Below are positions 34,430-54,400 of a DNA stretch of 57,484 nt, piece by piece. The notes beneath the pieces were generated by a model. It saw nothing but the letters and a program-made list of their open reading frames with translations. It did not search any database and was not told the DNA's origin. The position numbers and the translations under genes are program-made. Location of the stretch: assembly GCA_017446745.1 (NCBI GenBank), contig JAFSQF010000075.1, forward strand, positions 1-57,484, given 5' to 3'. Origin of the DNA: Bacteroidales bacterium (GTDB lineage Bacteria; Bacteroidota; Bacteroidia; Bacteroidales; P3). Positions within the stretch are counted from its first letter, which is position 1. Each line of letters begins with the position of its first letter.

Positions 34430-34503
34430 GGCCCCGTAGTTCAGCTGAATAGAACGTCGGATTCCGGTTCCGAAAGTCGTGGGTTTGAATCCCGCCGGGG
34501 TCA
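34430..34503 (+). tRNA. tRNA-Arg (anticodon CCG)
   Basis: 74 nt fold into a cloverleaf: acceptor GGCCCCG/CGGGGTC, D arm around TTCAGCTGAATAGAA, anticodon stem TCGGA/TCCGA with loop TTCCGGT giving anticodon CCG, and T arm GTGGG-TTTGAAT-CCCGC. CCA is not encoded (the sequence continues A, C, A, A). The 3' 22 nt form part of the integration core, so the element restores an intact tRNA gene on integration. Confidence 0.92.
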
Positions 34504-34504
34504 C
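34482..34504 (+). repeat. attL core (23-bp direct repeat, copy 1)
   Basis: The last 22 nt of tRNA-Arg plus one base, from GGTTTGAATCCC to GGGGTCAC, are repeated exactly at 56985-57007. Both flanking bases mismatch (G/C on the left, A/C on the right), so the core is 23 bp. The position at the tRNA 3' end next to a tyrosine recombinase gene is the classic attL arrangement. Confidence 0.93.
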
Positions 34505-34543: not shown

Positions 34544-34614
34544 AATCGAAACAAAACAGAAACAATGGATTTTTTTTCTCGGTGAAGTCATTAGCCTCCT
34601 CACCAAGAAAAAAA

Positions 34615-35778
34615 ATGTCTTCAAGCAAACTCTCATTAGTACAAAAATTTCTGCCTGCTGTAATAAAGGATTTACCTTCCATCGGCATGGTGGTGGAGTA
34701 TTATGTGCAAGACCCCCGGACGGAGAAGATGGTGCGGAAGCACATCAAGCTCACCCGCCTGATGAAACGCTATCCTCAAAAGCGGCAGCGCATACTTGCC
34801 GCCCAGCAGATAGCCGACAGCCTCAATGCAAAGCTGCGTGGTGGGTGGAGTCCGCTGCATGAGACAGAGGACGTCCGGCTGTACACCAGTCTTTCCGACT
34901 TGCAGGCGAGGTTCCTTTCCGCGAAAAAGTCCGAGGGATGCCGTCCTACCACCTTGACACAATACAAGTCGGTTACAGACTTGTGGCTTCGTTGGTGTGA
35001 GGATAACGGCATGGCAGACCGTTACAGTGGCACCTATCTACGCTCTCATGCTGTGCGCTACGTAGATGCCGTGTTGGAGCAGGGCCACCGCCACCGCTCC
35101 TACAACAACACGTTAAAGGTCATGAAGGCCTTCTTCCAGTGGGCTGTGGAGCATTGCTATGCGAAAGAGAATCCTTTCGTCGGCATGAAACTCTTGAAGA
35201 AAGAGCCGAAGATAAGAATCCTTGTGCCTCCAGAGGCCCGGCAGAAGATAGCGGCGCATTACGCACAGTTGCGTCCTGCCATGAACATTGTCTGCCAGCT
35301 TGTCTATTCGTCTGCCATCCGTCCGGCAGAGATAGCCAAGATACAGTTGAAGCACATCCACCTTGACCGTCACTATATAGTAATACCTGGTGAGAATGCC
35401 AAAAACCACAAGGAGAGGTATGCCACGCTGACCCCCTCTCTTGTTGGGCTGCTATCGCCTGTTTTAGCAAAATACAAAAATCTTGATTTCTATCTATTTG
35501 GCAAAAATGAAAATTTGGATCCTGGTGCAGTTCCCGTCAACAAACAATACTTCCAGAAAAGCTGGGATAGGATGAGGAAAGCGACAGGTTTGCCCAAGGA
35601 GATGCAGTTGTACTCGCTTCGCGACACGGGTCTCACCGACCTGCTGCACGCCGGGGTGGACCAGCTGACGGTGCAGCACCACGCCGACCATAGCAGCCTT
35701 GCTATACAGAACATCTACACCGACCATTTCGACAGCGGCCTGAACAAAAAGATCTATGAGAACGCTCCGGAGTTCTGA
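34615..35778 (+). CDS. Tyrosine recombinase (element integrase)
   Basis: 387 residues: N-terminal region, SAM-like core-binding domain (about residues 85-190) and catalytic domain. Catalytic residues are Arg236 (SSAIRPAEI), Arg336 (LYSLRDTG, with Tyr in place of the usual His), the His of HHADHSS in place of GHSS, and the nucleophile Tyr368 (IQNIYTDHF). It lies 111 bp inside attL and points into the element, as for phage integrases. ATG 34615 is preferred; an in-frame GTG at 34582 would add 11 residues. It should catalyse integration at tRNA-Arg and excision with a helper I did not find. Confidence 0.9.
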   Translation: MSSSKLSLVQKFLPAVIKDLPSIGMVVEYYVQDPRTEKMVRKHIKLTRLMKRYPQKRQRILAAQQIADSLNAKLRGGWSPLHETEDVRLYTSLSDLQARFLSAKKSEGCRPTTLTQYKSVTDLWLRWCEDNGMADRYSGTYLRSHAVRYVDAVLEQGHRHRSYNNTLKVMKAFFQWAVEHCYAKENPFVGMKLLKKEPKIRILVPPEARQKIAAHYAQLRPAMNIVCQLVYSSAIRPAEIAKIQLKHIHLDRHYIVIPGENAKNHKERYATLTPSLVGLLSPVLAKYKNLDFYLFGKNENLDPGAVPVNKQYFQKSWDRMRKATGLPKEMQLYSLRDTGLTDLLHAGVDQLTVQHHADHSSLAIQNIYTDHFDSGLNKKIYENAPEF

Positions 35779-39834: not shown

Positions 39835-40312
39835 CCCAAGCCTCCTTGTTGTAGGTACACACTCCGGGTTCTACAAGCGTCAGGTTAACGCGGTAGCCAA
39901 CATATCGCTGTGCATCGTTGGCCAGATACTGCCCTTCGATACCCTCGATGTCGACCGAATGGAATGGTTTGTCGGTGTCGGTCAGCATACGGCCAAGAAG
40001 CTCCTCTGCGATCATCTCGCAGCCGCTCATCTTCTCTTCCATCTCGGAAAAGTCGCCCACGTTCTCATAGCTGTCGGCGACGATAAACGACGTGGTGCGC
40101 CGTTTGGCGAGGTTCTGGCGTGTGCCAGTATACTCCACTTCGGAGCTTTCCGTGATAAGGCAGGGAAATTCCACCCGGCTGCGCAGCCCCTCGAAAAACT
40201 CCTGCAGCTCGCCACGGAAGAAATGTGGCTTGTCCGCCGTGTGGTGGATCCTGCGGTGCTGTGTGGCTAGCATCCGCATATAGACAGTATAGTCGATGAG
40301 AAAATTCTTCAT
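39821..40312 (-). CDS. Element protein of unknown function (163 aa), connector-like context
   Basis: A 163-residue protein with no signal peptide. Alternating strands in the middle (LRSRVEFPCLITESSEVEY, then RRTTSFIVADS) and a C-terminal strand (VGYRVNLTLVEPGVCTYN) suggest a compact alpha/beta fold such as a head-tail connector or neck protein. It overlaps both neighbours by 4-14 bp. The assignment is from size and position only. Confidence 0.45.
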   Translation of the reverse strand: MKNFLIDYTVYMRMLATQHRRIHHTADKPHFFRGELQEFFEGLRSRVEFPCLITESSEVEYTGTRQNLAKRRTTSFIVADSYENVGDFSEMEEKMSGCEMIAEELLGRMLTDTDKPFHSVDIEGIEGQYLANDAQRYVGYRVNLTLVEPGVCTYNKEAWDEES

Positions 40313-41322
40313 AACACCAGGAATGTTTTGTAGCCGTGGTTATCGATGAGGTCGGCGGCGTGTTCGGTGTCGGCCTCGCTGCCTATCTCCAGTATTTCGG
40401 GGTAGGTATCGGGGTGTGCCTTGCAGTAGGTGACGGCCTGGCCGATGTAGCGTTCTGCCGCCGTGCGGTGCTGCTGGGCGAAGGCGTTCACCTGTCCCTG
40501 CTTGGGTGCCTGCTGCACCTTGCCGGTGGTGTTGCCACTGGCATTGCTCTCGCCGCTGACCATCATCCCGTGCGGCGTGGGTTCCAGGTTCATGAACGGC
40601 GCCGCCTCGGCCATAGCCCAGTGTGCCACAAACGAGCGGATGCTTTGTAGAATGGGTGAGAAGCGCTTGTTCGTGCGGTCGGCAATGATGGCTGCGTAGA
40701 GGCCCTCGCCGATGCGGAACACAAGTTCCATCTTCTCGGCTTGGTCTATATGCTCGCGAAGGCGCGCGAAGACGGTGAAGTCGTGGCCGATGTTGACGTA
40801 TCGCTCAAACACCTCGAGCGACTCGATCACGCTATCCTTGCGTTCGGCGTAGTAGGGCGACTGCTGGAAATTGGCCAGCGTGTCGATGTGCTCGGTGCAG
40901 TACTCCAGCACCTTGTTGACATACTCGTAGCCCTGTCGGCGCAGCGTCTCGCGCAGCGCGTCGGTCTGGTAGCGGTAGGCGCGCTTCTCGGTCTGCATAT
41001 CGGCGATACCGTTGTCGGTCATCATCACGGCCAACTCGGCGAAGCTGTCCCAGCAGGCCAGCCGCACCACCGCCATCTGAAGCAGCCGGATGAGGTTGTT
41101 ATGCACCTCGCTTTCGCCTGAGGTGCCGTGTTCCTCGTAATATTCGGCTGCCTCATTGAATAGCGGTTCGCCTATGACGGGAGCGATGCGCAGCAGCTCC
41201 GCCGCCATGATGGCGGGGGCCATAGTGGCATATCGGGTCTGTACACCCAGGGGCAGACAGCGTTTAAATTCGCCACCGTTGCCCTCTGCGGTCTCCTGCT
41301 TAAAGAATCTTGGTTCGGTCAT
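40309..41322 (-). CDS. Element protein, helical, possibly DUF6712-like
   Basis: A 337-residue, mostly helical protein. The first two-thirds are dense amphipathic helices (MAVVRLACWDSFAELAVMM and YEYVNKVLEYCTEHIDTLA). A low-complexity Gly/Ser/Asn linker follows (SGESNASGNTTGKV) and then a short alpha/beta end. I suspect the DUF6712 group seen in Bacteroidetes phages, next to a portal-like gene, but cannot confirm it without a search. Its start overlaps the portal-like stop by 4 bp. Confidence 0.4.
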   Translation of the reverse strand: MTEPRFFKQETAEGNGGEFKRCLPLGVQTRYATMAPAIMAAELLRIAPVIGEPLFNEAAEYYEEHGTSGESEVHNNLIRLLQMAVVRLACWDSFAELAVMMTDNGIADMQTEKRAYRYQTDALRETLRRQGYEYVNKVLEYCTEHIDTLANFQQSPYYAERKDSVIESLEVFERYVNIGHDFTVFARLREHIDQAEKMELVFRIGEGLYAAIIADRTNKRFSPILQSIRSFVAHWAMAEAAPFMNLEPTPHGMMVSGESNASGNTTGKVQQAPKQGQVNAFAQQHRTAAERYIGQAVTYCKAHPDTYPEILEIGSEADTEHAADLIDNHGYKTFLVL

Positions 41323-42638
41323 GTTGTTATCTCCTCTTTGGCTTGCCCTGTATTGAGTGTGGTAAGGATGGTTTCCTTGTATTTAAGGATGATGTCCTCG
41401 CTGTGGCCGTTGTATTGAAGCATCAGCCGGATGGGGAACAGAACCTGCTGCTTCTCGATATAGGTGGTGATGACGCTCACCAGCCAGCTCTCGCGGATGT
41501 CGCTGCCGCTGCCGGCATTTCCGGCATAGGCTCCGCCGGGCATACCGGCACCGAGGACACTGGGGTTGATCATCAGGGAGAATAGGATTTCGCTGTTGGC
41601 TGCCGCCGAGGTACTGAGGCGTTCCTTGGCGTCGATTTCGTTCTCCAGGCGCTCGAATTTCCAGCCTTCGCCTTTGCCGTTCATCCCCGTCTCGTAGGTG
41701 CTGATGAACGCCTTGCTGACGTTATCGTCGCCGCAAAGGTCGTCGTTCATTTTCTTCATCCACTCCTGGATCTTTGCCTTGCGGTCTTGCTTGCTCTTGG
41801 CGTCGCCCTTGGGGAATTTCTCGTTCCAGAACGACTTCGGTACCTGTATGTGCCACATCAGCGACATTGCGTTGGCGTAGCTCTTCGAGAGGAATTTGGG
41901 TATCTTGTTGGCGATGTCGATCCATCCGCTCCTCCAGGCGGCGTCCCAGTCGGGGATGCCGTAGTAGTCATTGTTGCTATAATAGTTCTTGATGCGCGGG
42001 AAAGCGACGGGCTGCCCCTTCAGTTTGCCGATGACGCGCAGGCGTGCCAGGTCGGTGAAGGGGTCGTATTCGTCGAGCATCGGGAACACAGTGCATTCCT
42101 TCTCGGTTGGCAGGCATTCGTCGAAGTTGGCGAAGAAGAGCAGGTACTTCTTATCCTTACTGACGCGGCAATGGCGCGCATTGAGGACGATGGTGTTGAC
42201 AATCTTCGAGCCGTCCTCGTTGAAGTAGAACACCGGGAAGCAGTTGCCGAACTTGAAGATGTCGCGGAATGCGGTGCTGGCGTAGTTGATGAATTGTGGC
42301 GAACGGAAGTAGCGCTGCACCTCCGGCTCCTGACAGCCCACGAGAATTGGGTTGCCGCCGTCGTCGTAGCCTTTGATGTCCATAGGCACCACGCCCTGGC
42401 CAAAACTGGTGCGGGCGCGGAACCCGATGCCAGTGCTGAGCACGCCCGTCGAGCCGATGGTGCGCACCGCCTCGTCGGGGTATCGGTTGCCCGGACCCCA
42501 CGACACATATTCCCTGCCGCCAATCATAAAGGTTTCCCTCGGTTTTTCGGCAGCGGGTTCCGTGTTCTTCGTGAAGCCCACGACGCCACGTCCGCGAAAC
42601 ATCAGGGGGGTGCCGTTGTTGTCATACAGTATTTCCAT
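41319..42638 (-). CDS. Portal-like phage protein
   Basis: A 439-residue protein. Segments reminiscent of portal proteins are LSTGIGFRARTSFGQGVVP near residue 90 and the C-terminal SLMINPSVLGAG followed by GSGSDIRESWLVSVITTYIE, where portals have a conserved helix after an NP...G turn. The KRNIV-type clip signature is not obvious, so the match is partial. A portal would form the dodecameric head-tail vertex. It overlaps the small membrane gene upstream by 17 bp. Its place downstream of the DGR rather than next to a terminase is unusual. Confidence 0.4.
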   Translation of the reverse strand: MEILYDNNGTPLMFRGRGVVGFTKNTEPAAEKPRETFMIGGREYVSWGPGNRYPDEAVRTIGSTGVLSTGIGFRARTSFGQGVVPMDIKGYDDGGNPILVGCQEPEVQRYFRSPQFINYASTAFRDIFKFGNCFPVFYFNEDGSKIVNTIVLNARHCRVSKDKKYLLFFANFDECLPTEKECTVFPMLDEYDPFTDLARLRVIGKLKGQPVAFPRIKNYYSNNDYYGIPDWDAAWRSGWIDIANKIPKFLSKSYANAMSLMWHIQVPKSFWNEKFPKGDAKSKQDRKAKIQEWMKKMNDDLCGDDNVSKAFISTYETGMNGKGEGWKFERLENEIDAKERLSTSAAANSEILFSLMINPSVLGAGMPGGAYAGNAGSGSDIRESWLVSVITTYIEKQQVLFPIRLMLQYNGHSEDIILKYKETILTTLNTGQAKEEITT

Positions 42639-42852
42639 CGTCGTTTTTCTTTAGGTAGCGTTTCAGCTTGAAGTCGAAATAGCTGTCCAATCCCAGCAGG
42701 CTGCCTGCCAGCACGAACAGCTCGCCTACGGCACCGAGTACCGAGCCGCTGATTTCGCCCTTCGGGTCGATGAACATGGCGACGAAGAGCATAGCCACGC
42801 CAAGGATGGCCAGTATGGAGCCGAGCCAAAATTTCTTATCGTCGCGTGTCAT
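42622..42852 (-). CDS. Two-helix membrane protein, holin candidate
   Basis: 76 residues with two membrane helices (about 9-28, WLGSILAILGVAMLFVAMF, and 37-56, VLGAVGELFVLAGSLLG) joined by a short charged turn, and a basic C-terminus (FKLKRYLKKND). Size and topology fit class II holins. The amidase-like gene is in the same operon, which makes a lysis role plausible. No sequence family is recognised. Confidence 0.45.
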   Translation of the reverse strand: MTRDDKKFWLGSILAILGVAMLFVAMFIDPKGEISGSVLGAVGELFVLAGSLLGLDSYFDFKLKRYLKKNDDGNTV

Positions 42853-42855
42853 AGG

Positions 42856-43182
42856 CTATTCCTCCTCGCTGGCTTCGGGGTTGTCGGTTTCGGCGCTTTC
42901 GGTGTTCTCGCCCTCGGCGGTCGCGGCGGGTTCCTCCATTGTTGCCTCGCTGGTCGGCTCTTCCTCTAACGAGATCTCAAACTCCAACTCCTTCACGCGC
43001 TGCTCCACAGCCTGGTACTCCTCGTTGGCGGCCACGTATGCGGCATAGTCTTCGGGGTACTGGGTTTGGAATTTCTTGCCCAGTTTAGCGCATTTGGCGG
43101 CGTGAGCGTCGCTGCTGGCCATAATAGAAAGCAGCTCCACCATTCGGGCCTGCTTCTGTTTCAATTCTTCCTGTTTGTTCAT
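42856..43182 (-). CDS. Small coiled-coil protein with acidic tail
   Basis: 108 residues: helices in the first 70 (ELKQKQARMVELLSIMASSD and EYQAVEQRVKELEFEISLEE) and a Glu/Thr/Ala-rich acidic tail. It is the first gene after the reverse transcriptase and has its own candidate promoter. It could be a scaffold or assembly factor. No family is recognised. Confidence 0.5.
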   Translation of the reverse strand: MNKQEELKQKQARMVELLSIMASSDAHAAKCAKLGKKFQTQYPEDYAAYVAANEEYQAVEQRVKELEFEISLEEEPTSEATMEEPAATAEGENTESAETDNPEASEEE

Positions 43183-43208
43183 AGTATTATGTTTTAATTA
43201 TTATACTG

Positions 43209-43238
43209 CAAAAATACATCACAGCCGACATTCCGCAA
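43209..43238 (-). promoter_or_regulatory. Candidate promoter for the second half of the operon
   Basis: On the minus strand, TATTTTTG (complement of 43209-43216) matches TAnnTTTG, with a TTG 19 bp upstream. It lies between the reverse transcriptase stop and the 108-residue gene, so the genes from 43182 downwards may be transcribed apart from the DGR. Confidence 0.45.
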
Positions 43239-44685
43239 GGGACACCCTCTTTCGCTTCCTGTTGCGGCGCTTGTAATAATCCAATGTCGACGCTTCCGGC
43301 TTCACGTTTACCTTCAGCCAGTTCACTGTGTCAATCGTCAACACCTTTCCCCACGCCGATGCCGCGATGCTTTTTAAGATCATCCGGCGAAGGCGGAACG
43401 TGTTGCACCATTTCATCAGCCCCATATACGAATTGATAACTTGCACAAAGTGGTCTTTTTCGCGGAGCATATAGGCGATATTGGGGCGTGGCGGTGCCTC
43501 GCCGTACAGACAACCACTTCCTTCGGCTTTGCGGATGGCACAATCCACCTTCCGTTGCAGGTTGTGCACAATGCGGTCGCTTGGTAGAATGCGGTCGAAG
43601 CGAACCTTGTAGCCCAGCATACAGATACCTTTGGAGTAGTGCTGAAGATACCGCTTGTTAGGGTGCAGCGTCAGGTGCAGCTCGTTCCGCAGAAACCACT
43701 CGAAACGACCGATATCCTCCAAGAACCGCTCTTTGTCGCGAAAGACAAAAGCGGTGTCATCGGTGTAATGCACAAAGCGGTATCCGAGCGAAGAGAGGTA
43801 GTTAAGGTAGTAGGTGGTGAGGAAGTTGGCCAGCATTTGAGAGGTTACATTGCCGATGGGAATGCCGATGCCGTTAGTCTTGCCACGCAACGATTTCGAC
43901 TTGGGGAAACCGAGCCACATTCTTTCATTCGACTTGATGACGCAGTGGCTCTGCGGTAGCGACTGGTAGATAATGCGGGTGAGATACAGCAGTAGGTTCT
44001 TATGTGGCCCGCCGTACACCTCTTCGATGAAACGCGACATCAGGCGAACTGCCAATTCTGTGTCTATCGACATAAAGAAGCTCTGCAAGTCCAGTGAAGC
44101 GACATAGCAATCCTTAGTGTAGCCCTCACTGACCTCGAAGACGTACTCATAGAACTGCTGCACCGCACGAAGGCCACCCTTGCCGACACGACAGCTATAG
44201 CTGTCCGGGTGCAGGTGGTAGTGCTCCAACCACCAATTCAACTCGTTGAAATACCACGTCTGCACGAGACGATCGCCGAAGTCGGCGGCCAGCACCTCGC
44301 GCAGTCGCGGTACAGTAATCATAAAGCAGATACCCACGCGCATCACATATTCCATATTACCCACCTCGTGGACCAACTCCACAAGCTGCACCACGAGGTG
44401 GTACTGGAAAATCAAGCAGGAAGGCTTCATTGCCTTCCTGCGACGACACTGGCGGTTGACCTCATACCACTCTTCAAGTGGTATCTCGTAGAACTCCAAG
44501 GCTGCGTTGTCATACACATCAGATTCGAGGAGCGGGCGCACCTGATAACTGTTGTACTTGTTGTTGTTGTTCAAAGCACCGCTGGTCGGGTTGTATAACC
44601 AGGCGTTGTTGCCATTGTACTCACCGACGGCCCATTGCTTGCCTATGTGGAGGATTCTCACCTCGTTCTGACTAATCATATACAC
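43219..44685 (-). CDS. DGR reverse transcriptase
   Basis: A frame of 488 residues. RT motifs: VASLDLQSFFMSID with catalytic Asp199 (motif A), IPIGNVTSQMLANF with the DGR-type SQ at 282-283 where most RTs have QG, and HYTDDTAFVF (YxDD, 307-310). The protein ends in a very basic tail (YYKRRNRKRKR). Residues 17-54 are encoded by the TR itself and read like the target's variable domain, so the working start is probably downstream of TR, e.g. GTG 44517, just before NAALEFYEIPLEEW, which resembles the usual DGR-RT N-terminus. With Avd it should copy TR RNA into adenine-mutagenised cDNA. Confidence 0.93.
   Translation of the reverse strand: MYMISQNEVRILHIGKQWAVGEYNGNNAWLYNPTSGALNNNNKYNSYQVRPLLESDVYDNAALEFYEIPLEEWYEVNRQCRRRKAMKPSCLIFQYHLVVQLVELVHEVGNMEYVMRVGICFMITVPRLREVLAADFGDRLVQTWYFNELNWWLEHYHLHPDSYSCRVGKGGLRAVQQFYEYVFEVSEGYTKDCYVASLDLQSFFMSIDTELAVRLMSRFIEEVYGGPHKNLLLYLTRIIYQSLPQSHCVIKSNERMWLGFPKSKSLRGKTNGIGIPIGNVTSQMLANFLTTYYLNYLSSLGYRFVHYTDDTAFVFRDKERFLEDIGRFEWFLRNELHLTLHPNKRYLQHYSKGICMLGYKVRFDRILPSDRIVHNLQRKVDCAIRKAEGSGCLYGEAPPRPNIAYMLREKDHFVQVINSYMGLMKWCNTFRLRRMILKSIAASAWGKVLTIDTVNWLKVNVKPEASTLDYYKRRNRKRKRVSLAECRL
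43490..43507. repeat. 18-bp repeat inside RT gene (copy of DGR leader hairpin)
   Basis: GGCGGTGCCTCGCCGTAC at 43490-43507 is identical to 44706-44723, which forms part of the hairpin upstream of TR. Here it is coding (RT residues near 395-400, in the GEAPP segment) and can form a hairpin with one mismatch. Confidence 0.6.
44526..44637 (-). repeat. DGR template repeat (TR)
   Basis: 112 bp matching the VR at 45244-45355 at 100 positions. All 12 mismatches fall on coding-strand adenines of TR (T on the plus strand: 44553, 44555, 44562, 44567, 44570, 44571, 44583, 44591, 44596, 44606, 44615, 44616). TR has 32 such adenines and 80 other positions with no change. In VR the changes are 8 A-to-T, 2 A-to-G and 2 A-to-C. 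TR is rich in AAC/AAT codons (GALNNNNKYN), the usual DGR template design. It lies within the RT reading frame. Confidence 0.97.
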
Positions 44686-44700
44686 GGATGGTTTCTTTAT

Positions 44701-44719
44701 GGCGAGGCGGTGCCTCGCC
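44701..44719. promoter_or_regulatory. Hairpin upstream of TR
   Basis: GGCGAGGC-GGT-GCCTCGCC is a perfect 8-bp stem with a 3-nt loop between the avd stop and the TR. It would be part of the TR-containing RNA and could position Avd/RT or stop avd transcripts. Its 3' part recurs within the RT gene (43490-43507). Confidence 0.55.
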
Positions 44720-44751
44720 GTACGGAAAAAAATGACCAGTTAGGCATCCTT

Positions 44752-45177
44752 CTAATATGTGGGTTCTGACGCATCGGCTTGCCTTTGCGTGTCTGCCTCT
44801 TCCGCGCGTTTGTCAAAAGAGTTTAGCAGCCTACTGAAGTTTACATAGATATCGGCCAGCTGGATGTCGATTTTTGCCTTCGCCTCGTTGCTGATGCCCT
44901 GCAGGTCGTTCAGCTCGTTCATCAGCGCCTCGGCGTTATGTACCTCACTCATCGCCTCTTCCATATAGTAGAGTTTCTGCACCGCGAAACGCGGCGACAG
45001 ATCCATCGCCTTGATGGTGTACTTGCGCGCCTGGCCGAGGCCATTGACCAACTGCTGCACCAGCGTCGGGCGAAATTTCTTCGGCATCGACTTGTCAATA
45101 TACAGGCACACCGACTCCTCCAGCCGGCACACCAGCTTCACGACAGTTACATCCAGCACGGATTTCTTCTTATCCAT
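44752..45177 (-). CDS. avd: DGR accessory variability determinant (Avd)
   Basis: A 141-residue, almost all-helical protein, the size and composition of the Avd four-helix bundle. It has a basic central helix (YIDKSMPKKFRPTLVQQLVN), GQARKYTIKAMDLSPRFAVQ, and a third/fourth helix pair with NEAKAKIDIQLADIYVNFSR. It lies between the VR-bearing gene and the TR, exactly where avd sits in the BPP-1-type cassette. Avd pentamers bind the RT and TR RNA and are needed for mutagenic cDNA synthesis. The assignment rests on fold-like pattern plus position. Confidence 0.88.
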   Translation of the reverse strand: MDKKKSVLDVTVVKLVCRLEESVCLYIDKSMPKKFRPTLVQQLVNGLGQARKYTIKAMDLSPRFAVQKLYYMEEAMSEVHNAEALMNELNDLQGISNEAKAKIDIQLADIYVNFSRLLNSFDKRAEEADTQRQADASEPTY

Positions 45178-45191
45178 ATAGTAGAGGTTAT

Positions 45192-45215
45192 GGGGTGCGC
45201 CTCAAAGCGCACCCC
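45192..45215. promoter_or_regulatory. Post-VR GC-rich hairpin of the DGR
   Basis: GGGGTGCGC-CTCAAA-GCGCACCCC is a perfect 9-bp stem with a 6-nt loop, 28 bp downstream of the VR end and 11 bp past the target stop. In the BPP-1 DGR a GC-rich cruciform just after VR promotes target recognition in retrohoming; this one matches in place and type. It could also act as a terminator, but no U-run follows. Confidence 0.7.
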
Positions 45216-45226
45216 GGATTAAAGGA

Positions 45227-46645
45227 TTAAACTCTTTTAGAAGCGAGGAGCGGGCGCACCTGATAACTGTAGCACTTGTAGTTGCTGAACAAAGCACCGC
45301 AGGTCGGGGTGTAAAACCAGGCGATGTTGCCAAGGTACTCACCGACGGCCCATTGAGCGCGATACTGGATAGTCTGACCGCCGGGAGCCGTGGCGATGGC
45401 GGCGTTGAGGGTGGTGACGTGTTCGGGGGTCAGTTCCTCGACCAGTTCGGTGCAACTGTTCATATACCAGTTGCCCGGCTCAAAGCCTGTTGTCTCGCCG
45501 TCGACGGTGATACCGAAGGCTGCGCAGATTGCGGCACCAGGATAGACGTGCTTGGTGTTGCCCTCCGCGTCGGTGAAGTAGCAGTTGGCAAGGGCGTAGG
45601 TGTACGCCATGCCCTGTTCCCTACAGGTGGCATTGATGCCCTTGCAGATATTCTTCTTTATGCGGCGTGAAAGCAGGTACTGGTCGTAGTCGCCGCCGTA
45701 TTTGTCGTAGAGAGCCTTGTGCGTGGCATCCTCGTCGGTGGCCAGAGCATCCCAGACGCTTTTCTTCATCGGAACCACTTCGCTCTCTGCGGCGAAAGCT
45801 GCCGCACCGCTTGCGGAGTGATAGGACTTGAACGTAGCCGGACGGACATTCGTGCGGTACGAAGAGTTGTTGCCGCTCTCGCAGTAGCAGACGATGCTGG
45901 CGGCCATATACTCCAACGCCGGGAAGATAGTCTTCACCGCCTGGCCTTGGAATCCGGCGTGGCTACCTTTCGGGGTGCCGTTGATGCCGATACGGGCCGA
46001 CAGGGAGCAGTCGAGCACCGTGGCGTTGCTTACGCCGCTGAAGGTAATCGTACCGTTGTTGTAGGTCGACAGCGAGAAACGGATGGCGTTGTCGCCAATG
46101 GCTTTCACCGACAAGCCGCTGCCGGTGGTCAGCTGGCTGACAACTGAGGCGATGGTGGCACCCGCAACCCAGGAGCAGCTGCCGCTGATGGCCGCCGAGT
46201 AAGGTGTGCAGGTGTAGCTGAAGCCGCCGCTCTGCGTGAGATCGCACGTCACCTTGTATTCGTTGTTGGCCGCCCACAGCTCACTGCCGTCTGCCGAGCC
46301 GCCGTGGTACGCGTTCGACTTGTCGCCGATGCACTTTTTGTAGACAAAGATGTCGCGGTCGGCGTAACTCAGCAGGTAGAAAGCCTCGCTTCGCACATAA
46401 CGTGCCGAGTCGAAGGTGGCTGCATTGTAGGTGCCGTGCTTCAGAATCACCTCGCGATGTTCGGCGAGGTCATACAGTTTTTCGTCGCCCATCTCCAGCG
46501 AAGCGGAGCGATAGGGCACGATGACGTTCTTGCCGTCATATTCCACACCGTTGCCCGCCACCGACACGCTCGAGCGGTCGGTGGGACGGGTGGTGTCATC
46601 CTTGTACGCCTGATGGTCGGCGTATTGTCTGAGGTATTTGCTCAT
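45227..46645 (-). CDS. DGR target: tail adhesin with C-type-lectin-like variable domain
   Basis: A 472-residue protein. The N-terminal two-thirds are beta-rich and Ser/Thr/Gly-rich, as in phage fibres. The C-terminal part is a C-lec fold (NAAIATAPGGQTIQYRAQW), ending WAVGEYLGNIAWFYTPTCGA...YSYQVRPLLAS, whose variable positions fall at residues 431-468. Ten codons there differ from TR (Asn to Leu, Ile, Thr, Phe, Ser, Tyr, Tyr; also Leu to Phe, Ser to Cys, Tyr to Cys). It follows two other tail-fibre-like genes and is the likely receptor-binding protein diversified by the cassette. Confidence 0.92.
   Translation of the reverse strand: MSKYLRQYADHQAYKDDTTRPTDRSSVSVAGNGVEYDGKNVIVPYRSASLEMGDEKLYDLAEHREVILKHGTYNAATFDSARYVRSEAFYLLSYADRDIFVYKKCIGDKSNAYHGGSADGSELWAANNEYKVTCDLTQSGGFSYTCTPYSAAISGSCSWVAGATIASVVSQLTTGSGLSVKAIGDNAIRFSLSTYNNGTITFSGVSNATVLDCSLSARIGINGTPKGSHAGFQGQAVKTIFPALEYMAASIVCYCESGNNSSYRTNVRPATFKSYHSASGAAAFAAESEVVPMKKSVWDALATDEDATHKALYDKYGGDYDQYLLSRRIKKNICKGINATCREQGMAYTYALANCYFTDAEGNTKHVYPGAAICAAFGITVDGETTGFEPGNWYMNSCTELVEELTPEHVTTLNAAIATAPGGQTIQYRAQWAVGEYLGNIAWFYTPTCGALFSNYKCYSYQVRPLLASKRV
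45244..45355 (-). repeat. DGR variable repeat (VR)
   Basis: 112 bp at the 3' end of the target gene, ending 14 bp before the stop codon region. It differs from TR only at TR adenines (12 of 32). The invariant GC-rich 3' part on the coding strand (GGTGCGCCCGCTCCTCG) is the expected initiation-of-mutagenic-homing region. No second VR was seen elsewhere in the window. Confidence 0.97.
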
Positions 46646-46656
46646 ATTGTTGATTT

Positions 46657-48186
46657 TTAAGCATTACTAATCTGTTTCCAGTCCGTTGCCGCCGCCGTGC
46701 CGAAAGCCTTGTATGCGACCTTGTTGGTGGTGTCTATCCACTCCTGGCCGACGAAAGCCGGAGCGATGTCGGGAGAGGTGCTGCGCTTCAGGATGAAAGC
46801 GTTCTCTTTGTCGCCCTTGTCCATCAGGTTACCGGTGAGGCAGCGCACCACATTCAGTTCCTCGACAGTCAGTCTGCCCAGGCCGTCGCTCAGACGCTTC
46901 TCGAGGCCTCCGATGCGCTTGGCCAACGCCACGATAGCGGCGGCGGTAACGATGCCCTCCTGCTCGATGGTGTTGGGCAGGTTCTTCACCACGTCGGCCC
47001 AACGGCTGGCATATTCGGTCACGAAGTCTACCGCCGTAGCTCCGCCCTCGAAACGCATCGTGCCGAAGTCATCGACGGTCAGCAGGCCCGTGAGGTTGTG
47101 CGTGCCGGTGACCGGCGTGGCCAGCTCGTACTTCATCGACGCACCAGTCAATGCGGTTTTCAGATCTGCCACGGTGCTGATGGTGCTACTGTCGACCATC
47201 AGGTTCGTGCCGCTCAGGTAGAAGCCGCTGACGCTGCCGCCGCTGACGCTGAACAGGCCGCCCTGCTTCATCGCGCTCACGGCTGCCGCAAAGCGGTAGG
47301 TGGTTGTCTGACTGTCGCTTTCGCCGGAGGTGATCTCCTCGACGCTCCAGGAGAGGTTTTTCAGCGCCTCGACCACTCCAACGCGACGGTACCACAGGCG
47401 GTCGGCGGCTTTGTCGGCACAGACAATCTCATCGTAGACGTAGCTGCCGCCGTTGGACACACGCCGCATCGTGCCGCCCATCGCCGTGATGGTACTGGCC
47501 AGGCTCAACACATCCTCGCTGTAGGCGGCGTGGTCGGTGTCGCGGTAGTTGCTCCAGCAGATGTGGGCGCAGATGTCCGTCACGTCGACACCCGACGCAA
47601 AGGTAGCCACCACGTCGCCGTTGCTGGCGGGCAGGTAGTACACCACCCCGTTCTCGGTGTGCGTCGGCACGTTGGCGCCGTTCTGCTTCACGCTGGTGGG
47701 CACCACTATCTGCTTCTGGCTGTTCGTGAAGAGGTAGCCGTTGTTCTCTGTGCTGGCGCCGTAGGAGCCCCAGGCTGACTTCACAGCTTTGAAGGTGGCC
47801 TTCTGGCTGCTGATGCCGGAGAGGGGCAGCTGGTTGAAGCCCACGCTGACGATCCGTGCGCCGCTGGCGGCAATGCCCGCCTCGGTGCCGCGGATGCTCA
47901 CCACGCGGGCCTGACGCTCGCTGTTGATGTCCTGGTTGCCGCCGGTGGTCTCGATGGTGCGCGTCTGCTGGTATTCCACGTCGATGTTCGAGCCGATGTT
48001 CAGGTTGTCGGCCAGCTTGGGGATGATTTCGCCCTCGCTCAGGGCGCGGATAAACTCCGACAATGGGTAATTGACCGTCTCGCCGGTGTCGTAGCGCACA
48101 CCGAAGACGATGACCTTTTCTGTTGCCCCTTCGAAGCTGGGCATCTGCGGAAGGTCACTGCCGCGTTTGATTTGAATCTCACTCAT
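46657..48186 (-). CDS. Phage fibre/structural protein (509 aa)
   Basis: A 509-residue protein whose start (SEIQIKRGSDLPQMPSFEGA) resembles the short head-binding segment of fibre proteins. The body is Ser/Thr/Val rich with repeated strands, and the end contains TSPDIAPAFVGQEWIDTTNK, a pattern common in phage fibre and neck-appendage proteins. It is followed by the DGR target 12 bp downstream. Likely part of the same fibre assembly that presents the variable domain. Confidence 0.55.
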   Translation of the reverse strand: MSEIQIKRGSDLPQMPSFEGATEKVIVFGVRYDTGETVNYPLSEFIRALSEGEIIPKLADNLNIGSNIDVEYQQTRTIETTGGNQDINSERQARVVSIRGTEAGIAASGARIVSVGFNQLPLSGISSQKATFKAVKSAWGSYGASTENNGYLFTNSQKQIVVPTSVKQNGANVPTHTENGVVYYLPASNGDVVATFASGVDVTDICAHICWSNYRDTDHAAYSEDVLSLASTITAMGGTMRRVSNGGSYVYDEIVCADKAADRLWYRRVGVVEALKNLSWSVEEITSGESDSQTTTYRFAAAVSAMKQGGLFSVSGGSVSGFYLSGTNLMVDSSTISTVADLKTALTGASMKYELATPVTGTHNLTGLLTVDDFGTMRFEGGATAVDFVTEYASRWADVVKNLPNTIEQEGIVTAAAIVALAKRIGGLEKRLSDGLGRLTVEELNVVRCLTGNLMDKGDKENAFILKRSTSPDIAPAFVGQEWIDTTNKVAYKAFGTAAATDWKQISNA

Positions 48187-48197
48187 ATATATAAGTA

Positions 48198-48872
48198 TTA
48201 AAGTTTTATCGGTTCAATCTCTATCAGGTAGCCATCCTCGGTGCTGATGGCATAGCCGTCTTCGGTGCCCAGCACGTAGGCCGTGCGGAACCGCTCGACG
48301 CCGTACACCTCGTTGTCCGGCTCCCATCCCGCAAAGAACACCCTCGGTGCCTGGCAGCTGTACTCGAAATGCAGCTCTCCACCGTTGGCATCAGTTATGG
48401 CCTTGCCGCTCGTGGCACGGCTGCTGTCGGCCATACGCGCACCGCGGCGCGTGTCACCCAAAAGGTGCCACTCGCCATTGCTCAAACCCACCACCATCAA
48501 GTACTCGCGGTTCATCGCCACCGACATATAGCCCAGCAGCTGTTTCTTGAAGCCGGGGTGGAATATTTCAAGCTCGGCTTTGAGCGAGCGGCTGCCTTTC
48601 TGGCCCTGCGGGGTGTACACAAGTTCGCCCAGTTCGTCGGCACAGAAGATTTCGGCGAATTCCTTGCCGCTCTTTACGGTGACGGCCTTCTGCGTCATCG
48701 CCGCGCTGCCTATCACGACCGCCTCGCCGTAGTTCTGCGGCAGCGCCGCTGCCTGCGCGTTCACGCTCTCCACATCCTTGCGCGGTATGAACAGCAGCCG
48801 CTGCACCCCAGGCATATTGTTCACGCACACCCCCGGCGCGCCTATATTGCTTATTGCACTAATACATCTCAT
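48198..48872 (-). CDS. Element structural protein of unknown function (224 aa)
   Basis: A 224-residue protein. The N-terminal region (IGAPGVCVNNMPGVQRLLFI) and the repeated end (TEDGYAISTEDGYLIEIEP, with two TEDGY units) are visible. The rest is mixed alpha/beta with no known motif. It lies between two fibre-type genes in the same operon, so a fibre or tail-tip role is inferred from place only. Confidence 0.45.
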   Translation of the reverse strand: MRCISAISNIGAPGVCVNNMPGVQRLLFIPRKDVESVNAQAAALPQNYGEAVVIGSAAMTQKAVTVKSGKEFAEIFCADELGELVYTPQGQKGSRSLKAELEIFHPGFKKQLLGYMSVAMNREYLMVVGLSNGEWHLLGDTRRGARMADSSRATSGKAITDANGGELHFEYSCQAPRVFFAGWEPDNEVYGVERFRTAYVLGTEDGYAISTEDGYLIEIEPIKL

Positions 48873-48883
48873 ATCTTTATTAT

Positions 48884-49780
48884 TTAGTAATCCACATCAA
48901 GCTCCACAATATCCTTAACATTCTCATACACCTCACCCGACACCCCTTTGAGGGCCTCGAGGATAGTGTTCGTTTTCACACGGCTCTCCTTCAAGTCCGA
49001 CGTGATGCTGACTTTCTTGCCTGCCTCGCCAACCTGAGCCTCCAGCGCGCCGACGCGCGACACCATGCCCTGCGTGCCGCCGCCCCCGTTGACCGTGGCC
49101 TCCAGTGTGTCTATGCGCCCCACAGCACCGCTCACCGACTGCGCCGACTGTGCTGCCTCCTGCGCCTTCTGCGTCGCTATGCCGCACTGCGAGCTGCACG
49201 TCGTTGCCGAATTGGCCGCCGCCGTGGCCGAGTTGCCCGCCTGCGTCACCTTGGCGTTCATCTCCGTGATGAGCGCGTTCCACTGCACCGTCGTTGGCAC
49301 CTCCCCGGCACTGGCCTTCGAACCAATGGCGGTGTTGAGGGCTGTAATGGTGCTGTTATAGTCTGTCGTCGCCACCTTCTCCGCCAACCCCTGCGTAAGC
49401 TCCTGCTTCGTGGCCAGCCCGCTGATATCCGGCAAGTCTACCGTCTTGGCGTAGGATTGCAGCGCCGCCTCGAGGTCTGCTGTCGTCGGTCGCCGCGCCA
49501 GTGAATCCTCAACATTTCCAAGCGTCTCTTCGAAACCGTCTAACTTGCTCGTCGTCTCGCTGTCAAGCGATATCTCCAGCTGCGCCTGCGTCAGGTTCCC
49601 CACAAGCTCAACCCCGTTGATCTGCGGACGGTTGACAATTGAGTTGTAGTCTATCTTCCCGTCAACCAGCGCACCCCCCATTGCCTCGTTCAGCCCATTC
49701 ACCACATCAATCAGCTGGTTGATGATGCCGAATGCCTGCATCCAGGTCATTCCTTCTGTTATGTTGGGTATAGTTGTCAT
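48884..49780 (-). CDS. Coiled-coil fibre-like protein (298 aa)
   Basis: A 298-residue protein dominated by helical heptad repeats, with fibre-like segments such as GGALVDGKIDYNSIVNRPQI and a Ala/Ser-rich stretch (QAGNSATAAANSATTCSSQC). The pattern of short linkers between helices fits trimeric tail-fibre shafts. It overlaps the preceding gene by 4 bp (49777-49780). No enzymatic motif. Confidence 0.55.
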   Translation of the reverse strand: MTTIPNITEGMTWMQAFGIINQLIDVVNGLNEAMGGALVDGKIDYNSIVNRPQINGVELVGNLTQAQLEISLDSETTSKLDGFEETLGNVEDSLARRPTTADLEAALQSYAKTVDLPDISGLATKQELTQGLAEKVATTDYNSTITALNTAIGSKASAGEVPTTVQWNALITEMNAKVTQAGNSATAAANSATTCSSQCGIATQKAQEAAQSAQSVSGAVGRIDTLEATVNGGGGTQGMVSRVGALEAQVGEAGKKVSITSDLKESRVKTNTILEALKGVSGEVYENVKDIVELDVDY

Positions 49781-51390
49781 TGTAGAATATTATTGCCGTT
49801 GGGTATGGTAGCCTCCGAGAAGGCCACTATGTTATTGTTGAAATCAACGACGGTGGCCGTGGCGGCGCGTGCCATCGTGCCGTTGGTATTGTTCTCGGTC
49901 TGGTTCTCGACGAAGCGGTAGGAGAACTCCAGCTTCACAAGGTCGTCGGCCTGGTCGAGCACCTTGAATGAGCCTGCCTCGATGGTGATGCGCTGCCAAA
50001 CGCTGCCGCATTTGGCGTAGTGGTATTCCTGCCCGATGCATTGTGCCAGACGCTTGGCCTCGGGGCGTGTCATCTGGAACGTTGTAGCCGTGAACATCTC
50101 ACCTTTGTCCGTGTTGTCGAGGTAGCGGCGACGGTCTACGAGGAGTTCCTCTGATTCTAACGAAAGCTCCCTACTGACCTGCGGCACCACGAAGCTGCGC
50201 AGTGTGCCGTACTTGCTTTGCATGAGCAATTCTGTCGGTTCGAATGCGTCGGGCTGCATGATAAATGTGCGGCTCCATGAGCTGCCGGCCATCGACAGCT
50301 GGACGGTGTAGTACCGCGCTGCCGAGCACCCCAATGCCAGCGGTCCGACAGGGATGCGGTATATCTCGCCGTTTTTGACGGTATGCGTACTTGACGCCGC
50401 GACGCCGCCATCCTGTGATATGACGACGGTGACGGTCTTCGTGTTGGTCAAAGCAACCGTCGGGTCGAACCACATACCGTAGATATATTCCGCCTGACTG
50501 CGGCAGACGCGTATCATCGAGCCGTTGTCCTCTCCGAGAACACGGAAGAGGCTGTTGGCCTCCGACAGCTGCGTCTCGCCACCTTTCCAGTCGGGCAGGT
50601 TGAGCCGGGCGAAGCGTTCCGCCACCTCGCCACAGAGGGCGTATTTATACGTTTCCGTTGCCCAGTTCTGCACCAAAGGAGATTCCTCGCCCCACATCTC
50701 GCCATAGCCGACACGGTATTCCAGCAGCATATTGGTCAGCGGCACCCACGCATTCAAAGCCGCCACGGTAGACGGCAGGTCCGGCTGCGGAATAAAACCC
50801 GGCAGGAGGTCAAGCGGTATCTCCACGTCGCCTGCACTGTCGGGCTGGAACACCATCCCCTTCACTGTGTGTGTCTCGACGTGGTTGTTGTTGTTCACAA
50901 CCACATCCAATTCTACAGCCACGGCATAGTTCGGCTTCTCCTGCCGGTCCGCTCCGCCGCCGTTCAGCGTCCAGCTCAGCATCGTACTCTCGTGCCCCGT
51001 CCGGTTGCCGGCAGCGTCGGTGCAGTAGATCGACACCTGATGCGCGCCCACCTCCGTTGCCACAGCACTCAAATAGGTCGCGCTGTTTGTGCCCGTCAGG
51101 GTGAAAAGCCTTGTGAAGTACCAGCACCCCCGTATCTTGTCCAGCAGCTCCGCGTCGCTGGCCACATCGTAGGCATTGCCCGTAGCGCTCCCCACCACCG
51201 TAAAGACATACTCGCTCCCGTCGATGGCAAGCACTATATGGTTGCCCGCCGCCGGTATGCTCCCCCGACGGCGGCAGACGATATAATGCTTCGCACCCAC
51301 CGAGTCTAAGCACTCGCAATGCAACTTGTAGCTGTTTCGGTTTCTGGCCCAACTGAGTGCAAACGGCGACGATGTTATGCTGACTGACAT
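49777..51390 (-). CDS. Tail protein following the tape measure (537 aa)
   Basis: A 537-residue, beta-rich protein with several strand-turn segments (VGAHQVSIYCTDAAGNRTG looks Ig-like) and no catalytic motif. In siphophages the genes after the tape measure encode distal-tail and tip proteins, and this one sits directly there. A TAnnTTTG element 24 bp upstream suggests its own promoter. Exact role unknown. Confidence 0.5.
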   Translation of the reverse strand: MSVSITSSPFALSWARNRNSYKLHCECLDSVGAKHYIVCRRRGSIPAAGNHIVLAIDGSEYVFTVVGSATGNAYDVASDAELLDKIRGCWYFTRLFTLTGTNSATYLSAVATEVGAHQVSIYCTDAAGNRTGHESTMLSWTLNGGGADRQEKPNYAVAVELDVVVNNNNHVETHTVKGMVFQPDSAGDVEIPLDLLPGFIPQPDLPSTVAALNAWVPLTNMLLEYRVGYGEMWGEESPLVQNWATETYKYALCGEVAERFARLNLPDWKGGETQLSEANSLFRVLGEDNGSMIRVCRSQAEYIYGMWFDPTVALTNTKTVTVVISQDGGVAASSTHTVKNGEIYRIPVGPLALGCSAARYYTVQLSMAGSSWSRTFIMQPDAFEPTELLMQSKYGTLRSFVVPQVSRELSLESEELLVDRRRYLDNTDKGEMFTATTFQMTRPEAKRLAQCIGQEYHYAKCGSVWQRITIEAGSFKVLDQADDLVKLEFSYRFVENQTENNTNGTMARAATATVVDFNNNIVAFSEATIPNGNNILQ

Positions 51391-51451: not shown

Positions 51452-54400
51452 CTACAGCCGCGCTCTGCTGCGCAGGAACTGCTCGTTATTCTCAAAGTCC
51501 GTCATCGTCTGGCGGCTGATCACCGCCCGACGGTTGTTCGGGTCCTTGAAGTACGCGGCCAGCTCGCGCCACAACTGCACCACCTCCTCATTCTGCGGCA
51601 TCGTCACCGACACATTGGGGTTGATCGCCGGCAATGCCTCCGACAGCCGACCCTCCGACAGCGACCGTCTGCGCCCCAGCTCCCGGGCCGCGCGCGTCGC
51701 CACCGGCATATTCAGCTGCGCCATCGGCACGTCGGCCAGCGCACGACGGTTGCCCCGCTGGTAGGCTTCCAGTTGCTCGATGACGGGAGCCGCCACTGGA
51801 TCTGTCAGCAGAGAGTTCGACGCCACCCATTCCGGCCCCGCCTCGCCAGCCTGATACACCGTCCGCCTCGGCACATAGCCACCCCGCGCGTAAGGCTCCG
51901 GCTCGTTCTTGATGGCCAGCAGCTGCGCAGCAAACTCGGCGGCCATCAAGGTACTCATTGCCACCTTGTAGGCCGTCGAGCCCTCGCCTGCCCAGATCTT
52001 CATCGTGGCTACTGCGGCGGCAATGGTCGCTTCCGATGCGCCCAGCAGTTTCTCCCGACGCCACGCTTCAAGCGCCGCCTCATCGGCTTTGTCTTTGTAG
52101 TTGTCTTCAAGTTCTTTCTTCCGGCTCTCGTAGTCTTCCTGCGATATAAGGTTCTGCTCCAGCTGCTCATCCAGCGTCTCTATCTCGGCATCCCTCTCCT
52201 CCTCCAACTGCTGCAAGCGGCTGTCGGCGATATTCTTCAGCAGGGTGTTGATATTGGAGAATACCGACAGCGCCTTGTTGCCGAATTCATCCACCGCGTC
52301 AGCCCAGTTCTGGAGGGTGCTGCGGAAGGCCTTGCTCTTGGCTAACTCCTCGGCTTTCTCCTTCACGGTCTGCTCGCCCTTGGCCACCTCATCCAGCTCC
52401 GCCTTTTGTTCCCGCAGGGCTTCGGCGTTCTTGCGGTGCCGTTCGGCTTCATCCACATTTCCGCTCTTCCGGGCTGCCTGCTCCATCAACTCCTCGGCGG
52501 CGATAGCGTCGTCAAGTTTCTTTGTGTATTCCTCGACTTGCTTGGCAACCTCCGCCATGGCCTTCTCCCGGGCTTTCGTGAAGCTAAAATTGCCTTTATC
52601 CTCATCCTGGTCAATAGCCTTTTCGAACGGATTCTTGACGCTCGTGTCTATCGACGCAAAGACAGAAGCGGCGACAACATTGCGAAGCTCACGATAGGCG
52701 GCTATCCTCTCATTGACGTCGTGCAGCTGCCGACGCGACGCTTCGTCGGTCATCGGAAAGAGCGCCGCCTGGTCGGCATAGAGCTTTATCAGCTCGTCGT
52801 CAATACCGCTGATCTTCTGTCGCAATTCCTCGACGGCTTTTGCCGCCTTGTCAACCTGCTCGCCGTTCCCTTGTTTGGCGGTGGACTTGCGCAGCTTGTC
52901 TATCTCCGCCTGGGTCTTGGCGAGGTATTCGTCTATCCTGGCCGCCTTCCACCGCTCCGCCTGCACCACAAGCCGCTCCAGGTTTTCTGCCGCTTCCGGG
53001 TGGACCGTCTTGTCTACATTCTCCAATTCCTGCCTCATCTTCATTATCGAAGCATCCACCTCGGCGTTGATTTTCTCCACCCCCGTCAGCGTCCGCGCCG
53101 TAATCTTCGCCATCACCTGCTCGTAGTTCTGCGAGAAGCTGTTCCACGCCTTCTCCTCGCGCTCGCGCTTCTCACGGGCTTTTCGCTGTGCCGGAGTTTC
53201 GCCGCCGCTGTAATTACCACCATCGTCACCTGGGGTTTCATCCTCTTTGGATGATTTTCTTAGTTTTGCAATTTGGTCGCGCAAAGCTTTCAGCCTGGCA
53301 GCATCCTTTTCGGCCCCTTCGCTAAAACCGCGTTCCATAGCCTCTAACACCTTGGCAAGCTCCGCCTCCAACTCCTTAAGGCTCTTCTTTTGCACCCCGA
53401 AGGGGTCGGGGTCGGTAGCCTTCAGCGAAGTCTGCAGCTCTTTCAATGCCTGTGTTGTCAGATTTGCCTCACCGCGCATCTTGAAAAGCTCGTTCGTCAT
53501 CACGCTGTAGGCTGTTGAGCTAATAGACAGCCCGCTGCCAAGCAATAAATCGCGAAGCCTTACAGTTAAATCAACAAACTCAGTCTCACCATCAGCGGCC
53601 TCTTTAAGGATGGTGTTGATTTCTTGCTTTATGTGGAGTTTTTCAGCTTCGCTGAGGTCGGAAAACACTCGGTTTACCTTTTTACCGAACCATTCCATTC
53701 TGTCCTGTAATTTCTCGCCAAGCTCGCCCTGCAATTCACTTGCCTTTTCCGCATACATACGTTGATACACGCTGGCCGCCGCAGCCTCTCCCAACGCCTT
53801 GTACATGCCTGTAAGGTCTTCAATGTGCCCTTTTTCATCAACGTAAAGGCTGACTATTTCGGGATGCATCGCCCTTAGTTCGCCGAGGGCATTCAAATAC
53901 TCCTCACTACCCTCCGCAGCCCCCTCCATTCTTTCGCGCAGCACTTTCAGCCGCCCTTGCTCTTCGAACACCTGACGGTTGGCCTCCTTTGTGGCTTTCT
54001 CAAGGTCGCTCTCGGCTGTGGCCAGCTTGTATATCACTGTGGCCAGCGTTGTCGCCAGCCCTATGATGAGACCCCACGGTGTGGCTTTCATCGCCGCATT
54101 CTTAGCCCGTATGGTGGCCGTGTGGGCTTTGTCGGCGGCGTCGGCATGCTGCGTGGCGTTCGCCGAGTAGGCCTTGATATTGGCCTCCGCCTGCTCGCGG
54201 CGCGCAAGCCCCTCCACTGTGGCAGCATACGCCTTGTCGGTGAGGATGAGCTTCTCTTTGTTGATCATCTCCAGATATTCAGCTTGGCGATTTCGGTGGT
54301 ATGCTTCAAGTTTCTTCTGTTCCAGCATTATCTGCCGCTGCTCCAAGGCCTGCCGCGTCCGCTTGACGGGAAGCATAACCAACTCGGCGGCTTTTTCCGC

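Follow-up and report, generated by a model that had tools for sequence, protein, structure and literature searches.

A diversity-generating retroelement whose template repeat lies in the reverse transcriptase reading frame

What serves as template RNA in a diversity-generating retroelement (DGR) when the template repeat (TR) lies inside the reading frame of the reverse transcriptase (RT)? The question is raised by a DGR at positions 43219-46645, minus strand, of contig JAFSQF010000075.1 from a Bacteroidales bacterium (assembly GCA_017446745.1, 2.79 Mb); the stretch analysed, 57,484 nucleotides (nt) long, is called the window, and all coordinates refer to it. The element runs from a target gene with a variable repeat (VR) at its 3' end through Avd and the TR to the RT. 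The RT open reading frame (ORF) begins ahead of the TR and continues through it in the frame of the VR, an arrangement absent from the first-pass annotation of this DNA. That annotation had described a complete minus-strand DGR in this order, and the ORFs, the repeat pair and the family matches of RT and Avd all agree with it.

Studies of the DGR mechanism rest largely on Bordetella phage BPP-1, in which a separate non-coding spacer belongs to the template RNA. BPP-1 resembles the present element in gene order (target with VR, Avd, TR, RT) and in adenine-specific repeat differences, and differs in that its TR ends 144 nt before brt, outside the RT frame. According to the part of the source available to us, a spacer RNA lies between the BPP-1 TR and brt, folds, recruits bRT-Avd and supplies the priming adenine (PMC12875486). 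Roux et al. place the TR "in most cases" between genes (PMC8144416, available in part). Overlap of a TR with the RT 5' end is already known: it defines group 3 of Schillinger et al., 2012 (PMC3521204), which the window resembles in this respect; the part of that study available to us leaves frame unmentioned, considers spatial arrangement irrelevant to mechanism and holds the two RNAs to be most likely separate. In the DGR literature searched, seen partly and without supplements, we found no account of a conserved TR-RT frame or of a template RNA within coding sequence, which is not proof of absence.

We think it likely that the element is a tailed-phage DGR with its TR in the RT gene, in which the RT is translated through the TR and the RT mRNA is the RNA that is copied. 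Adenine-mutagenic copying from TR to VR has diversified a putatively C-lectin-like target. RT translation would begin upstream of the TR, giving the enzyme an N-terminal peptide encoded by the TR, and the copied RNA would be the RT mRNA itself, at once message and template. The 3' end of avd, together with the opening ~180 nt of the RT coding sequence, would stand in for the non-coding spacer RNA of BPP-1, and RT-Avd bound to the template RNA could also block RT translation.

The template repeat and the RT frame among relatives

The TR (44526-44637, minus strand) lies within an RT ORF of 486 residues counted from an ATG (43219-44679, minus strand), its N-terminus encoded by a short leader and the TR; from a GTG the ORF extends to 44685, and these limits stand as first annotated, as do those of Avd and the target. 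The first relatives found had the same frame running through TR and RT, and came from a scan with TR-peptide patterns, which favours in-frame TRs. A second scan used RT-only patterns, with a query alignment made mostly from fused loci, and we took the best 80 of the 505 relatives it listed, two of which (L003 and L050) were already in the set. Phage records and genomes of the same family were also searched with an RT query that excluded the TR, to offset the bias of TR-seeded searches.

We classified 79 loci (78 new ones and BPP-1). The TR lies in the RT ORF and in its frame in 31, 25 of them with an upstream ATG; five have no TR pair; and in the others the TR is upstream, partial, downstream, in another frame or unknown. 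The class that BPP-1 receives in this sort (inside the ORF, different frame) is mechanical, as the frame was taken from stop to stop and not from the annotated start. An adenine-biased repeat pair occurs somewhere in 74 of the 79 loci, and by the filter used in this sort 74 have one within 3 kb of the RT. The relatives show two main architectures, one with the TR fused into the RT frame and one with the TR just ahead of the RT. At L035 / L174 a short RT ORF, matching the profile only from the middle (hmm position 285), stands beside a TR/VR pair and is probably a frameshifted or broken RT.

An RT tree of 131 rows was built with a quick method and carries SH-aLRT support only; left out of it were 12 named loci judged truncated, distant or duplicate, any locus lacking a TR pair, and rows that have fewer than 250 residues or repeat another row over residues 50-250. 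One clade of 55 rows (support 97) holds 52 fused loci with an upstream ATG, two open without ATG and one with a separate TR. The window belongs to a set of 21 rows (support 96), made up of 14 fused with an upstream ATG, six open without an upstream start and one separate, and a further clade of 23 rows (support 100) contains 22 with a separate TR. The frame of the TR equals that of the RT in 54 of 55 rows of the large clade (53 measured and one, L058, whose VR runs off the contig, set by eye) and in 20/21 of the window's set, as against 4/23 in the separate-TR clade, where L141 was kept although its VR frame is unreliable. For 54/55 versus 4/23 Fisher's test gives 2.5e-13, a figure to be read as a guide, as the rows are related.

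The 55-row clade keeps this frame despite 12 different TR-RT spacings and 20 leader lengths (spacing and helix landmarks are pattern matches, and spacing was obtained for 52 of 54 rows). Its exception is L037, with the TR 81 nt ahead of the opening of the RT frame. Of the clade's rows, 15 were obtained with RT-only queries, and every one of these is in frame; six of the 15 are contigs that TR patterns also hit. In 41/54 rows no ATG stands between the beginning of the TR and the first RT helix. Because our RT profile was made from sequences trimmed at the end of the TR, its start says nothing about where the RT begins, and we cite the PHROG match instead, which begins ~19 residues (57 nt) past the TR, at residue 74 of the 488-aa ORF. 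Taken at the level of sequence, the comparison shows that a TR within the RT gene, with a short leader, a TR in the target's frame and then the RT domain, is a feature of this RT lineage, and the conserved frame supports an RT that bears a TR-encoded N-terminal peptide.

Phages with described or deposited DGRs fall on both sides of this division. Bacteroides uniformis phages F2 and F4 (PMC8143477, available in part) share with the window the RT family (32-34% identity), Avd and a short TR-RT gap, and the F2 target lies near the Lcl_C cut-off; their TR differs in sitting in a separate small annotated ORF ahead of the RT, in another frame than the RT. A small TR ORF as a general feature of the separate clade, hinted at by F2, was rejected, an upstream ATG in the TR frame being present in only 10/22. 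In Bacteroides phage BS-TP1 the deposited annotation puts the RT start ahead of the TR, which falls inside the RT coding sequence, in the same frame; the phage's RT is 29% identical and belongs to another fused clade than the window's.

Past homing, protein identities and prophage setting

Between TR and VR (45244-45355, minus strand) there are 12 differences in 112 positions: eight are A-to-T, two A-to-C and two A-to-G, and the 80 non-adenine positions have none. A recount thus bears out the first-pass figure of 12 differences, all among 32 TR adenines, and chance is ruled out as the source of the bias (hypergeometric P = 5.1e-8); the translations also agree that ten target codons are altered. 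Identity extends to 117 bp (44521-44637 and 45239-45355), adding two adenine differences, and stops 9 nt ahead of the target stop codon, which places the VR at the target's 3' end. The two outer positions read AA in the TR and CT in the VR in the window and in its relatives L005 (RT identity 92-93%) and L004 (79%). As this pair is the same in three lineages it is fixed and marks the 3' boundary, in the manner expected of an IMH/IMH* boundary, and the 112-bp limit first given to the repeat is a sensible one.

Over the first 112 positions, TR-VR differences fall on adenines in 12/12 cases in the window, 16/16 in L005 and 10/11 in L004. The window's VR differs from those of L005 and L004 at 21 and 18 TR-adenine sites and at 1 and 10 other sites, the latter being the number of sites where the TRs themselves differ. 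At these non-adenine differences each VR bears the base of its own TR (1/1 for window and L005, 10/10 for window and L004, 9/9 for L005 and L004), so homing took place after the lineages split. The claim of several homing rounds draws support from this lineage comparison, while the three substitution types first offered for it are poorer support. Adenine-specific copying from TR to VR is a thing of this element's past, as read from the repeats. A stem-loop with a 9-bp stem and the 6-nt loop TTTGAG (45192-45215, minus strand) stands 23-24 nt past the 117-bp identity and is identical in L005 and L004. Within 90 nt 3' of the VR, 21/30 chosen loci have a perfect stem of 7 bp or more, versus 0.5 expected from base shuffles. 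BPP-1 likewise has a GC-rich inverted repeat 3' of its VR, needed there for homing (PMC3240598, seen in part), with a loop of 4 nt (GRNA) as against 6 nt in the window.

The RT matches RVT_1 (Pfam, 4.4e-11) and the reverse transcriptase family phrog_1423 (PHROG, 1e-50). Its YTDD and SQ motifs, both named in the first-pass annotation, are intact in the alignment, and it carries PIGNxTSQ, which we take to be the DGR-type signature. The best solved relative is 8ub7 (7e-7), labelled only "Reverse transcriptase" in the database and presumably the BPP-1 DGR RT. NCBIfam models for group II intron, retron and DRT types score 55.7/300, 19.5/235, 21.7/390 and 17.3/450 bits, far under their cut-offs. Avd (141 residues, 44752-45177, minus strand), placed between target and TR as in BPP-1, matches phrog_3206, "Avd protein of DGR" (5e-4), and has no Pfam match; Avd is common in DGRs, not universal. 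These two PHROG matches, with relatives whose RTs mostly stand beside adenine-biased repeat pairs, uphold the identification as a DGR.

The target (472 residues, 45227-46645, minus strand) has no Pfam match. Its C-terminus aligns by profile (98.1% probability) with eight related DGR targets; a scan of seven of them gave five with a match to Pfam Lcl_C (two at ~1e-8, three at 0.003-0.025), none at the gathering score. The C-lectin-like domain first proposed is therefore supported only indirectly, through the alignment to related targets of which some match Lcl_C below its gathering score. The target is probably a tail-associated protein.

A tape-measure gene (51452-55804) and a tyrosine integrase (34582-35778) adjoining tRNA-Arg (34430-34504) lie in the same window, which places the DGR in a tailed prophage; the tRNA-Arg beside the integrase is likely the attachment site. 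Searched with the TR, the own assembly gave matches at the TR and VR only. Phage records held no near DNA relative of 40000-50000, and 61 genomes (the own one and relatives) queried with 43219-48186 returned the own copy and otherwise short matches in the own genome and two others. The own genome has a second reverse transcriptase domain at C60:73917-74528.

Predicted RNA structure around the template repeat

The window has no TR-RT spacer of the BPP-1 type, ~140 nt and non-coding; its RT frame is continuous with the TR, and the strong fold lies in coding sequence. The 401 nt around the TR fold with a z score of -4.1. In 120-nt windows over the first 180 nt of RT coding, z relative to shuffles is -3.2 and -7.9 in the window, -1.8 and -6.0 in L005, and -6.2 and -4.1 in L004; deeper RT windows mostly give about -1 to +2, the lowest being -3.5 and -2.2 (L005) and -2.5 (window). 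These windows point to two hairpins in the RT coding sequence (44361-44441, minus strand), at 44416-44441 and 44361-44401. Upstream, a predicted helix P1 pairs the avd 3' end (44751-44760) with the TR end and first RT codons (44514-44523) and is present in the window's best 401-nt fold. In L004, P1 keeps three two-sided changes, with one GU and one broken pair, a count reached by 6/500 shuffles. P2 (44741-44746 with 44640-44645) is invariant in four sequences and so offers no covariation evidence. The hairpin P3 (44671-44740, minus strand) pairs 44732-44740 with 44671-44679, and P2 and P3 together contain the RT start region, with the RT ATG at 44679 in the 3' strand of P3. With the RT start codon in a helix, RT-Avd sitting on the template could conceivably block translation.

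Other pairings also join avd to the RT 5' end. In the L047 group two different helices, of 10 and 11 pairs, link avd and the leader to the first RT codons; the 10-pair helix never varies, and the 11-pair one has one two-sided change and one break. A gapped duplex of the 3' end of avd with the RT 5' end beats all 25 shuffles in 7/15 loci of the window's set (control 0), 12/45 of the large clade (control 2) and 1/20 of the separate clade (control 1). An ungapped helix reaches P <=0.05 in 8/15 of the window's set (controls 1, 0, 0 and 2 of 15), 7/45 of the large clade (controls 2, 3, 0, 3) and 3/20 of the separate clade (controls 3, 1, 0, 2), and as a general feature it was rejected. Two-sided changes that keep pairing make up 62/538 changed pairs, versus 200/3589 at six control places, about twice as frequent; these counts run both ways and share members, which makes their significance optimistic. 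A scan of 42600-47000 against Rfam at E up to 1 gave one chance-level match, below gathering score. Folding and covariation suggest that the RT mRNA most likely doubles as template.

This DGR has two insertions of a palindromic repeat: one at 43490-43507 (minus strand) in the RT, where it is in frame and adds ~12 residues, including GCLYGEAPP, and one at 44706-44723 (minus strand) in the loop of P3, ahead of the RT start. L005, L003 and L004 have neither insert. At up to 2 mismatches the repeat occurs at five places in the assembly, two of them the DGR copies. A host ORF (L015:1069-2334, on C98 of the own genome) also encodes GCLYGEAPP from a repeat copy; it has no Pfam match and carries PDHLHG, presumably the motif of REP-associated transposases. 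Such a copy hints at a REP-like element that spreads inside coding sequences.

Weighing the explanations

A more specific version of the reading we favour would have a template RNA made of two coding sequences, with avd 3' and RT 5' ends paired around a TR translated as the RT N-terminus, the start codon caught in structure, and one mRNA switching between enzyme and template with a preference for cis and self-limitation. We hold this version to be possible, and somewhat doubtful. Several observations count against the wider reading. On a slightly different stretch the window's best fold lacks P1 (L005, L003 and L004 retain it), the three two-sided changes in P1 all come from one sequence, L004, and a slide by +2 columns yields two. 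The window's own gapped duplex is weak (z -1.9), and its ungapped helix is matched by 33 of 100 shuffles. In 31 fused or open loci the windows after the TR are weak (z averages -0.62 and -1.03, with 7/31 and 9/31 under -1.5), a control window further into the RT equals them (-0.71; 10/31), and L006 and L007 have windows of about -3 elsewhere in the RT; a strong after-TR fold in all fused DGRs was thus not found. All kept changes combined barely exceed control (0.34 vs 0.27-0.33). Every ATG, GTG and TTG is absent from TR start to first RT helix in only 2/54 rows, six rows of the window's set lack all three upstream of the TR, and synonymous change over RT codons 1-40 is reduced in 10 of 15 groups (P <0.05 in five) and not lower in the other five.

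The leader, too, shows little coding signal: its codon-position variation is flat (0.18/0.17/0.24, vs 0.23/0.15/0.51 in the RT). Together with low synonymous variation (0.09 vs 0.52, G047 group), this indicates that the leader is constrained mainly as nucleotide sequence; conservation as protein is largely ruled out, third positions being little more variable than first and second. The nucleotides AATGGGCG are conserved upstream of the TR across divergent RTs (L041-L044, L046, L049, L053, L059, L070, L079 and others), and an exact 20-nt leader pattern matched, in viral contigs, only three contigs already in the set. By analogy, AATGGGCG may possibly be an RNA signal like the one in the BPP-1 avd mRNA that ends reverse transcription.

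A rival explanation is an ordinary DGR, with RT translation from a GTG just past the TR, a TR that acts as untranslated RNA immediately ahead of the RT in the manner of BPP-1, and an open frame that is a by-product of a stop-free TR. A TR must in any case be free of stops in the VR frame, GTG (in D-V-Y) follows it, the PHROG match starts only some 19 residues beyond, and TRs are unfused in the 23-row clade and BPP-1. What makes this explanation unlikely in our view is the frame itself, expected to agree in one third of cases by chance and found to agree in 54/55 across 12 spacings, along with the 41/54 rows devoid of ATG after the TR start; the annotated gap of 144 nt between TR and brt in BPP-1 also speaks against it.

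We find it improbable that the DGR is an inactive remnant, broken by the 12-residue RT insert and the P3-loop insert: the lack of both in L005, L003 and L004 would fit, but the RT insert keeps frame and sits where other alignment rows also have gaps, the other lies in a hairpin loop, and the YTDD and SQ motifs are intact. Smaller still, in our estimate, is the chance that the fused frame is kept by a protein role of the TR-encoded peptide in the RT (e.g., binding Avd or the target). An in-frame TR peptide in two large sets is what such a role would leave, yet homing already constrains the TR codons, the leader peptide has little codon-position signature, and the TR landmark lies anywhere from 29 to 97 codons past the first ATG.

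If the RT mRNA is indeed both message and template, RT translation and template use would compete on one molecule, which suggests a simple control of mutation rate and predicts action in cis. It would also matter for gene callers and for DGR engineering, in that the RT 5' end would not be freely recodable.

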